Positions 31,156-33,863 of a stretch of 64,000 nucleotides of DNA are shown here, piece after piece. Numbering within the stretch: the first letter of the stretch is position 1; every line of letters begins with the position of its first letter. The notes under the pieces were generated by a model. The model worked only from the letters and a program-made list of their open reading frames with translations, had not been told where the DNA came from and searched no databases. This DNA comes from Synergistaceae bacterium (GTDB lineage Bacteria; Synergistota; Synergistia; Synergistales; Aminobacteriaceae), in contig JAHDLC010000027.1 of assembly GCA_018436595.1 (NCBI GenBank), positions 1 through 64,000 on the forward strand, given 5' to 3'. The translations under genes and the position numbers were made by a program.

Positions 31156-32433
31156 TTACAGGAACACGCCTCTCATCCGGACCGCGTCGGCCACCCTCTG
31201 GATGGCCGCCATAAAGGCTGCCCGGCGCATCTTGACGTTTTTGTCCTTCGCGTACGTCCAAACCCTCTGGAAGTTGTCCTTCATAATGCGGATCAGCCGG
31301 TCGTTGTACTCCTCCTCCGACCAGAAAAATCCGCCGAGGTCCTGGGCCCACTCGAAGTAGGAGCCGATGACTCCGCCCGAATTGGCGAGGAAGTCGGGGA
31401 CGACGAGAATGCCCTTTTCGTCGAGAATGGCGTCACCTTCAGGAGTGATGGGGCCGTTGGCTGCTTCGACAATGTACTTCGCCTTGACCTTGTCGGCATT
31501 CTTTCCGTTGATGACGCCCTCAAGGGCAGCGGGGATAAGGATGTCACAATCCAGGAAAAGAACTTCGGGAAGGTCGAGCTTCTGGCAGCCGTCGCAGGTG
31601 AAGCCTTCAAGAAGGCGCTTCGGGTGGTTGCTCACGTGATCGAAGGCTTTTTTGATATCAAGGCCGTTGGGAGCATAGTATGTTCCTGTGATATCGCTGA
31701 TTCCGATAACCTTGGACCCGGAATCGATCATTGTAAGGGCCGCGTAAGTGCCCACGTTGCCGAAACCCTGGATGGCGACGGTGGCTCCTTCCGGAGACTT
31801 GCCGAGGTTTTTGAGAAGCTCAAGGGCGCAGGTTGCGACGCCGTAGCCGGTCGCAGCAGTACGGCCCTTGGATCCCCACAGGGGAATGGGCTTGCCTGTA
31901 AAGATGGCGGGCTCGAGCTGGTTCTTCATCTTGCTGATGGTGTCCATGAACCAGACCATTTCAGGTCCGCCGGTGTTGACGTCCGGTGCGGGAACGTCGG
32001 TCCAGGCGCCGATGACGGGAGCCATGCGTGCAGCCCAGGTCCTGGCGATCCGTTCTTTTTCCTTCTTGGAAAGCTCGAGAGGTTCGCAGGAAACGCCGCC
32101 CTTGCCTCCGCCGTAGGGAATTCCGGCGAGGGAGCATTTCCAGGTCATCATCATGCCGAGGGCTTCGCATTCGTCGAGGTTCACTTCAGGGTGGAAACGG
32201 ACTCCGCCTTTGCCCGGCCCGATGGCGGATGAATGGAGAACCCTGTACCCGTCAAAAACCCGGACCGTACCGTCATCCATTTCCACGGGGATGGAAACGC
32301 ATGTCCGGCGCTCGGAATGGCTGAGGATGTCGATGAGTCCCTCTTCGAGCCCCATCTCCTCAGCTGCTGCATAGAAATTCTTGAGTGCTGTGTCAAGGAG
32401 AACGTTTGAGGAAGTACGCTTTACTACGGCCAT
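31156..32433 (-). CDS. gdhA: Glutamate dehydrogenase (Glu/Leu/Phe/Val family), copy 2
   Basis: The 425-residue protein is a paralogue of its neighbour, with HSSAIGPGKGGVRFHPEVN, PYGGGKGGVSCEP (catalytic Lys) and PAPDVNTGGPEM. The NAD(P)-binding domain starts near AIQGFGNVGT. It differs from copy 1 in an EGFTCDGCQKLDLPE insert with two Cys. The start is ATG 32433, 8 nt after AGGAGG. It has its own promoter and a strong terminator, so the two copies can be expressed independently. The two may differ in cofactor or direction; I cannot tell which. Confidence 0.92.
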   Translation of the reverse strand: MAVVKRTSSNVLLDTALKNFYAAAEEMGLEEGLIDILSHSERRTCVSIPVEMDDGTVRVFDGYRVLHSSAIGPGKGGVRFHPEVNLDECEALGMMMTWKCSLAGIPYGGGKGGVSCEPLELSKKEKERIARTWAARMAPVIGAWTDVPAPDVNTGGPEMVWFMDTISKMKNQLEPAIFTGKPIPLWGSKGRTAATGYGVATCALELLKNLGKSPEGATVAIQGFGNVGTYAALTMIDSGSKVIGISDITGTYYAPNGLDIKKAFDHVSNHPKRLLEGFTCDGCQKLDLPEVLFLDCDILIPAALEGVINGKNADKVKAKYIVEAANGPITPEGDAILDEKGILVVPDFLANSGGVIGSYFEWAQDLGGFFWSEEEYNDRLIRIMKDNFQRVWTYAKDKNVKMRRAAFMAAIQRVADAVRMRGVFL

Positions 32434-32483
32434 TAAACACACCTCCTGTATTTTTACGGCTTCCGCCGTTTGAGACTGTTCAT

Positions 32484-32513
32484 ATCATAACATTTTTTTC
32501 CCAAAAGCACCAA
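32484..32513 (-). promoter_or_regulatory. Promoter of glutamate dehydrogenase copy 2
   Basis: On the minus strand TTGGTG (32513-32508), an 18-nt spacer and TATGAT (32489-32484) lie about 50 nt upstream of the ATG. The surrounding DNA is very A+T-rich, which fits a highly expressed catabolic gene. Confidence 0.55.
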
Positions 32514-32570
32514 GAAAAGAGAAGAAATAGGTCAAAATAGTTCCAAATACCTAAAACAAAATATTACAAT

Positions 32571-32903
32571 TCATTCGCCGCAATCGGAGCAATCCGCACA
32601 AAAAGAGCCGTTCCCGGAGTCAACACTCGTGACCATGAGGTAGGCAGACCACAAAAAGCCCCGCTGCACCACTTCTATCATTTCATTCCTGAACTTCAGA
32701 AATGAAGGAACCCAGAGAGTCACTCCATCCTGCTCGATTTTGCGGTACTCGCCCTCCGACGGAGGGGCGCCGTCTTCAACCCTGAAGACTCTCCTTGCTC
32801 CTCACCCAAGGCCGAGAGTCCGCTGGATGACAAATGCCTCCCCCTTTTTCCGGAGCTTTTCCATAACGCTTCGTTCCGCGACTAGTTTCAGTTCCATTTT
32901 CAT
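32571..32903 (-). CDS. Candidate small selenoprotein with in-frame TGA (Sec34) and C-terminal CxxCxxC
   Basis: A single minus-strand frame runs from ATG 32903 to TGA 32571, interrupted only by TGA at 32804-32802 (codon 34). AGGAG lies 6 nt upstream of the ATG; Met3 also has an SD. Read with selenocysteine the product has 110 residues: a charged N-terminus, GLG-Sec-GARRVF, a middle part with VEDGAPPSEG and QDGVTLWVPSFL, and a tail CADCSDCGE with Cys102, 105 and 108. An 18-nt perfect hairpin just after the TGA is placed and shaped like a bacterial SECIS. Size and layout recall small proteins annotated as 'CC/Se motif (seleno)protein', from memory. It follows rluA by 30 nt. A nonsense mutation is the main alternative. 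Confidence 0.7.
32772..32789 (-). promoter_or_regulatory. SECIS-like hairpin for selenocysteine insertion
   Basis: On the minus strand a perfect 6-bp stem GTCTTC / GAAGAC encloses the loop AGGGTT. Nineteen nucleotides separate the TGA (32804-32802) from the first loop G, inside the 16-37 nt range known for bacterial SECIS elements. A loop with GG and U resembles the E. coli fdhF element (AGGUCU). A lower stem may form between GAGG next to the TGA and CCTC further down. Confidence 0.65.
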
Positions 32904-32933
32904 CCTCCTCTCCTCACCTGCAGCTCTTCTTTT

Positions 32934-33863
32934 TTATCCCGGAACCCGCCATCCCCGGGAGACACAGAGGGATTCCATGTCTCCGGCAGGAGGAGCGGTA
33001 ATCCTCATGCCGGACAAATCCTCGATTTCTCCCCCCAGTTCCCCGAAAAAAATCCTGTAGCTGTGAAGCAGCGGGCGCCGGATTCCCCGTTTTCTCCATT
33101 TCCCGTTGGTTTCCTCGCTCCCGTACCGTATGTCGCCCAGGACAGGGTATCCGATGGATGCCATGTGGACCCTCGCCTGGTGGGATCGTCCCGTCACAAG
33201 ATCGATCTCAACCAGAGACGCGTCGTTTCCCCCCGCGAGAAGCCTGTACCTGGTCAGGGCATCCTTGCCGTCCGGATCGATCCGGACGGTGTTCGACGAA
33301 GGATCCTTCAGGAGAGGCGCCCGTATCTCCCCTTCCTTCGGCGGAAGTCCCGCCACCACGGCCAGGTAGGTCTTCCGGATTTTCCTCTCCCGGAAGGCAT
33401 CCTGGAGAATCCGGAGACTGACCCCGGAAAGAGCCACGAGCAGCACGCCCGTGGTGTTCCTGTCGAGGCGGTGCACGGCATAGGCCCTTTCCTCGAGCCC
33501 TTCGAGATGGAGCATGTATTTCACCCTGTCAAGAACGTTGTCCTGGTCTTTCCTGTCGGGCTGGACAAGAAGGTTTTCAGGTTTGTTGACCGCCCAGATC
33601 CGGCTGTCCCGGAAGAGAACGGGCACAGTCCTGCGGTAGCGGTACTCCCCCGCCGCTTCCCTTGGGCTCTCCCAGGGAACGTAGATTTCCTGGCCTGCAG
33701 AAACCCGGACATCGCAGGAGGCCTTTTTCCCGTCAAGCCTCACGGATCCTGTCCGGATTCCCTTCATGACCACGCTCAGGGGAAGGCCGGGCCAAATGGA
33801 CCGGATCACCTTGTCGAGCCTGCGTCCGTCGTCTGAAGAAGAAACCGTCAGCTTATGCGCCAT
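32934..33863 (-). CDS. RluA-family rRNA/tRNA pseudouridine synthase
   Basis: The 309-residue protein has an N-terminal S4 RNA-binding domain (about 13-75) and the RluA catalytic domain with HRLDRNTTG, whose Asp is the nucleophile, and GRSHQARVHMASIGYPVLGD. This layout is typical of RluC/RluD-like enzymes that modify 23S rRNA; the exact uridine cannot be told. The ATG overlaps the end of the YhaM-like gene by 11 nt, and GGGAG lies 7 nt upstream. The selenoprotein candidate follows. Confidence 0.9.
   Translation of the reverse strand: MAHKLTVSSSDDGRRLDKVIRSIWPGLPLSVVMKGIRTGSVRLDGKKASCDVRVSAGQEIYVPWESPREAAGEYRYRRTVPVLFRDSRIWAVNKPENLLVQPDRKDQDNVLDRVKYMLHLEGLEERAYAVHRLDRNTTGVLLVALSGVSLRILQDAFRERKIRKTYLAVVAGLPPKEGEIRAPLLKDPSSNTVRIDPDGKDALTRYRLLAGGNDASLVEIDLVTGRSHQARVHMASIGYPVLGDIRYGSEETNGKWRKRGIRRPLLHSYRIFFGELGGEIEDLSGMRITAPPAGDMESLCVSRGWRVPG

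Follow-up and report, generated by a model that had tools for sequence, protein, structure and literature searches.

The window, by which we mean the whole 64,000-nucleotide stretch of Synergistaceae bacterium contig JAHDLC010000027.1 analyzed here, very probably carries on its minus strand a functional selenoprotein gene with selenocysteine (Sec) at codon 34 and a HesB-like fold; we put the probability of these features jointly, with the mode of action excluded, at about 0.93. The frame runs from 32903 to 32571, and its sole interruption is a TGA, codon 34, at 32804-32802. The gene and its surroundings comprise:

31156-32433, minus strand: gdh1, a glutamate dehydrogenase-like gene (named by eye), downstream and a frequent neighbor
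32571-32903, minus strand: the selenoprotein gene, NF041239-like, with a predicted HesB fold; ATG 32903 is the start originally predicted, and the stop is TGA 32573-32571
32580-32600, minus strand: codons of the C-terminal tail CADCSDC (Cys102, 105, and 108), read from the sequence; most aligned members have a Cys-rich tail
32772-32789, minus strand: bSECIS-like stem-loop with a 7-bp stem and a GGGU loop (32782-32779), assigned from its fold, covariation of the homologous stem across the phylum, and low synonymous change
32802-32804, minus strand: the in-frame TGA, read as Sec34 (numbered from ATG 32903); the same column is TGA in homologues
32904-32915, minus strand: a putative Shine-Dalgarno-like purine-rich stretch, GAGGAGAGGAGG
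32934-33863, minus strand: an RluA-type pseudouridine synthase gene (named by eye from similarity), upstream and a conserved neighbor

The original prediction, a frame open from ATG 32903 to 32571 except for the TGA at codon 34, is borne out. Members of the genus share the second ATG, at 32897 (MELK...), as their start, two codons inside the first; counted from there, Sec would be codon 32 of 108. The purine-rich GAGGAGAGGAGG may play a Shine-Dalgarno-like role. The part after the TGA had been said to lack a start of its own; an in-frame GTG and an ATG do exist, but both lie far downstream and would yield a fragment only. The gap of 490 bp that a gene caller would leave agrees with the distance of about 500 bp between the RluA-type stop (32934) and the gdh start (32433). 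The window contains 85 TGA-split frames of comparable size, so such a frame alone is not unusual. The window sequence by itself is weak evidence, and the claim for a selenoprotein gene is carried by the comparative evidence.

Of 61 relatives, 30 have homologues, as do 72 of the 188 genomes of the phylum; the strong matches come from 51 genomes in ten families. About 50 Synergistota genomes, again from ten families, have orthologues in which this codon is also TGA, and the same-column codon is TGA in 46 distinct full-length genes. The TGA at 32804-32802 cannot be put down to a sequencing error, since it recurs independently in about 50 genomes. Two close homologues, L018 and the second of the tandem copies at L102, have TGT (Cys) at the Sec codon. 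Three more distant copies (L103, L104, and L105) replace Sec with Ser or Arg and retain the Cys-rich tail, which is missing in some lineages. A search of genome contigs with the window protein gave no match; the same search with the homologue L012 returned Synergistota records. At L102 (G123:C1:2135000-2139000), Sec and Cys copies stand in tandem; this genome is one contig, and a strict search gave no tRNA-Sec in it. Two other genomes, G045 and G054, have four family copies each, all with an in-frame TGA (L118, L119, and further matches).

The two sides of the TGA evolve alike. Between the window gene and its counterparts in two related genomes (G001 and G002, respectively), omega upstream of the TGA is 0.09 and 0.08; downstream it is 0.07 and 0.10. 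The values after the TGA indicate that this part is selected as protein, and judged by these ratios purifying selection acts equally on the two parts; the coding character was thus rightly described as continuing unbroken, and a pseudogene is contradicted by the selection on both sides. Synonymous change is low in the 13 codons that follow the TGA, at 3.0 of 10 sites (window-G001) and 1.0 of 10 (window-G002), while further downstream it amounts to 25.5 of 41.5 and 27.0 of 42.2, respectively.

These codons include the hairpin. It had been described as a perfect 6-bp hairpin with an AGGGTT loop; the 19-nt distance and the bSECIS type stand, but it is better drawn with a 7-bp stem (GUCUUCA/UGAAGAC) and a GGGU loop that starts 19 nt after the TGA. 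In this form, it satisfies the constraints of a published bSECIS model, namely G in the first two loop positions, a spacing of 16-37 nt, and a stem of 4-16 bp (PMC13188914). Tested on the window sequence by itself, the hairpin does not stand out significantly from synonymous shuffles: its folding z-score is a mere -0.72, and stems of 7 bp or longer that respect the bSECIS constraints turn up in 36% of synonymous-codon shuffles. No Rfam element matches this hairpin.

The wider family is more informative. In most of it, the stem pairs columns 16-24 with 28-36 from the TGA around a three-base GUN loop, and 85.8% of cells pair. Stem covariation is 0.265, compared with 0.180 +/- 0.015 in shuffled alignments (0 of 500 reaching it) and at most 0.127 for slid arms. 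At the stem tip, Leu is encoded by CTC in 35 of 37 Sec genes versus 24% elsewhere in the same genes, a count drawn from related sequences and so not from independent events. The two Sec genes without CTC use CTG, one of them with a compensating CAG, and the two Cys copies with Leu at the stem tip also use CTG. On the window's own branch, the stem is displaced by one codon, and covariation inside that branch (nine sequences) is not significant. Across the phylum, the aligned sequences indicate that the hairpin covaries and constrains codon choice.

The genome also encodes the machinery to read such a codon. It contains selA (C1:69335-70687, 558 bits), adjoined by selB; selD (C6:78526-79461), which carries an in-frame TGA of its own; and tRNA-Sec with anticodon TCA (C26:79411-79504, 75 bits). 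The selA-selD set proposed as a check is thus complete. Across the phylum, tRNA-Sec was detected in 44 of the 51 genomes with a strong homologue versus 79 of 137 others (Fisher p 2e-4); the seven strong-homologue genomes without a detected tRNA-Sec, which weigh against the reading, are mostly drafts, and one of them, G123, is the single contig. Altogether, the prediction of a genuine selenoprotein gene at 32903-32571 is supported, and none of the three observations that it had named as speaking against it (a genome lacking sel genes, homologues with neither Cys nor Sec, a different base) occurs. The comparison of genomes shows UGA to be sense in the window gene with a selected stem-loop behind it. 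On this comparative evidence we infer that UGA at codon 34 would be decoded as Sec by SelB and tRNA-Sec, directed by the stem-loop 19 nt downstream.

The gene sits in a conserved neighborhood: an HD-domain gene, the RluA-type gene, and the selenoprotein gene occur together across the families of the phylum, often with gdh next. Downstream in the window lie what we take, by eye, to be two glutamate dehydrogenase-like genes, the first with its ATG at 32433. In two genomes (G017 and G021), the selenoprotein gene is missing between the RluA-type gene and gdh. An AT-rich stretch before gdh1 (32450-32573, minus strand) is conserved, and since G021 (L126) keeps it despite lacking the selenoprotein gene, it belongs to gdh and is probably its leader or promoter. 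The terminal TGA was considered as a second Sec codon and rejected: homologues end near the same point, variously on TGA, TAA, or TAG, and what is conserved beyond it, kept in G021 without the gene, is part of the gdh leader. Shared ancestry of the locus is little informative on function.

More can be drawn from the predicted fold. In an AlphaFold2 model (pLDDT 79, with the tail poorly predicted), the leading Foldseek matches in the PDB are of the IscA/SufA/HesB type (SufA 2d2a, E 9e-4, TM about 0.45-0.5), with no credible match below them. Profile alignment with E. coli IscA/ErpA/SufA by hhalign (E 6e-6, probability 85) sets GLGU34 on TSGC35 of IscA, aligning Sec34 to Cys35, a cluster ligand. 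A search of the PDB by sequence profile gave weak, unrelated matches only. Six family members touch PF01521 (best 2.3e-5, 25.0 bits versus a gathering score of 26.3), and the window protein has no match to this model. We therefore predict a HesB/IscA/SufA-like fold on a modest structural match. The product would be a protein of about 108 amino acids, lacking a signal peptide and belonging to the NF041239 "CC/Se motif" lineage, in which Sec34 would sit at the IscA Cys35 position and the Cys-rich tail where A-type carriers carry CGCG.

The same genome encodes a paralogue, L113:1139-1513 (plus strand; about G000:C39:73138-73512), found also at L114, L117, and L030. It has a signal-peptide-like N-terminus (MRKGRIALFLSVLAVLLVFSALPATAA), an in-frame TGA of its own (YKNTUGEE), and a SECIS-like GGCTCTC-GTC-GAGAGC behind that TGA. 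NCBIfam models gave no match to paralogues of this type, and other genera have versions with Cys (YSCRQG; L106-L110). The sequence of the paralogue suggests an exported selenoprotein with a HesB fold, which may be more novel than the window gene. In the freely readable papers searched, we found no description of the HesB-like fold, of the register that puts Sec on Cys35, or of a paralogue of the exported type.

As to what the window protein does, the reading we favor, at a little short of even odds, is that the Sec selenolate and the tail cysteines, where present, would bind a metal or an Fe-S cluster in a site like that of A-type carriers. A CxxCxxC tail working with Sec, as first suggested for this gene, is plausible though putative. 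Counting against a metal or Fe-S role are the exported-looking paralogue and the lineages without tail Cys, both of which speak against a simple carrier in particular, and the lack of an isc/suf link: we saw no linkage of the gene to isc or suf genes. A link to the SUF system was rejected, as no SufBD was found in the window's genus; SufBD was recognized in only 12 of 41 related genomes.

A substantial minority possibility is that the same gene encodes a selenol/thiol redox protein, in which Sec34 would attack a substrate of disulfide or peroxide type, with the selenenylsulfide resolved by a Cys of the tail. Redox activity is assumed for most uncharacterized selenoproteins (PMC13188914), the tail Cys are present in most members, and a paralogue with a signal-peptide-like N-terminus and in-frame TGA would fit an extracytoplasmic redox role. 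However, the fold is not thioredoxin-like, the Sec site has neither CxxU nor UxxC, the tail Cys are missing in some lineages, and Sec falls on a cluster-ligand position.

An extension of the metal or cluster reading, which we consider speculative and unlikely, is that Sec HesB-fold proteins substitute in Synergistota, where no canonical A-type carrier was recognized, with the selenolate as cluster or metal ligand and the exported Sec paralogue in an extracytoplasmic role. A search for canonical A-type carriers (PF01521) gave none in the 41 related genomes, and control genomes gave matches. That some lineages lack A-type carriers, with other proteins perhaps substituting, has been raised before (PMC2682760). 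Also unlikely is a scavenger of metals or metalloids such as Hg or As, in which Sec and the cysteines of the tail would act as soft ligands: a metal-ligand role of Sec has been proposed for other selenoproteins listed recently (PMC13188914) and the tail is Cys-rich, but the conserved neighbors (HD-domain protein, RluA, and gdh) have no metal-resistance character. Readthrough of the UGA by a near-cognate tRNA or with another amino acid, or a gene that ends at the TGA and leaves a relic (pseudogene or separate ORF), is very improbable: this gene does use TGA as its true stop and TGA-split frames are common in the window, but purifying selection is equal on either side, the close non-TGA homologues have Cys and not Trp, the stem covaries, its codons are constrained, and the full Sec machinery is present.

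With the Sec-containing, HesB-fold reading, a gene is recovered that standard annotation misses or splits throughout the phylum, and a family listed merely as hypothetical or "CC/Se motif" is given a fold prediction and a candidate for its active site. This reading also makes testable whether selenium may serve as ligand of a metal or cluster in a protein resembling A-type carriers, in a group of bacteria that yielded no ordinary A-type carrier.

Among known systems, the A-type carriers IscA, SufA, and ErpA resemble the window protein in predicted fold and profile, in the Cys-rich C-terminus, and in the position of Sec at IscA Cys35. They differ in ending CGCGxSF, where the window tail is CADCSDCGE and the tails of other members are variable or absent, and the family stays below the gathering score of PF01521. 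The HesB-like selenoprotein TIGR01911 (HesB_rel_seleno) is also small, HesB-like, and of unclear function (PMC11097638). However, it gave no match in NCBIfam scans of the window protein and the aligned members, and its listed motif is UxGP (PMC13188914), compared with UGAR here. The third such system, NCBIfam NF041239 ("CC/Se motif family (seleno)protein"), likewise contains Sec and has no known function; all 25 aligned members match its model, almost from end to end. It corresponds to Moor_selen_rel, a "hypothetical protein predicted in Moorella thermoacetica" listed as a selenoprotein family without function (PMC13188914, Table 1). Its listed Sec motif is CxxU (PMC13188914), whereas here an invariant Gly stands three before Sec in all aligned members. 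Its cut-off of 40 bits is passed by three of nine scored proteins (L012, 47.1; L014, 43.2; L017, 43.7), and the window protein scores 28. Thus, as all 25 members match while the window branch falls below the cut-off, the window protein is, by these profile scores, a divergent member of a known, uncharacterized selenoprotein family.
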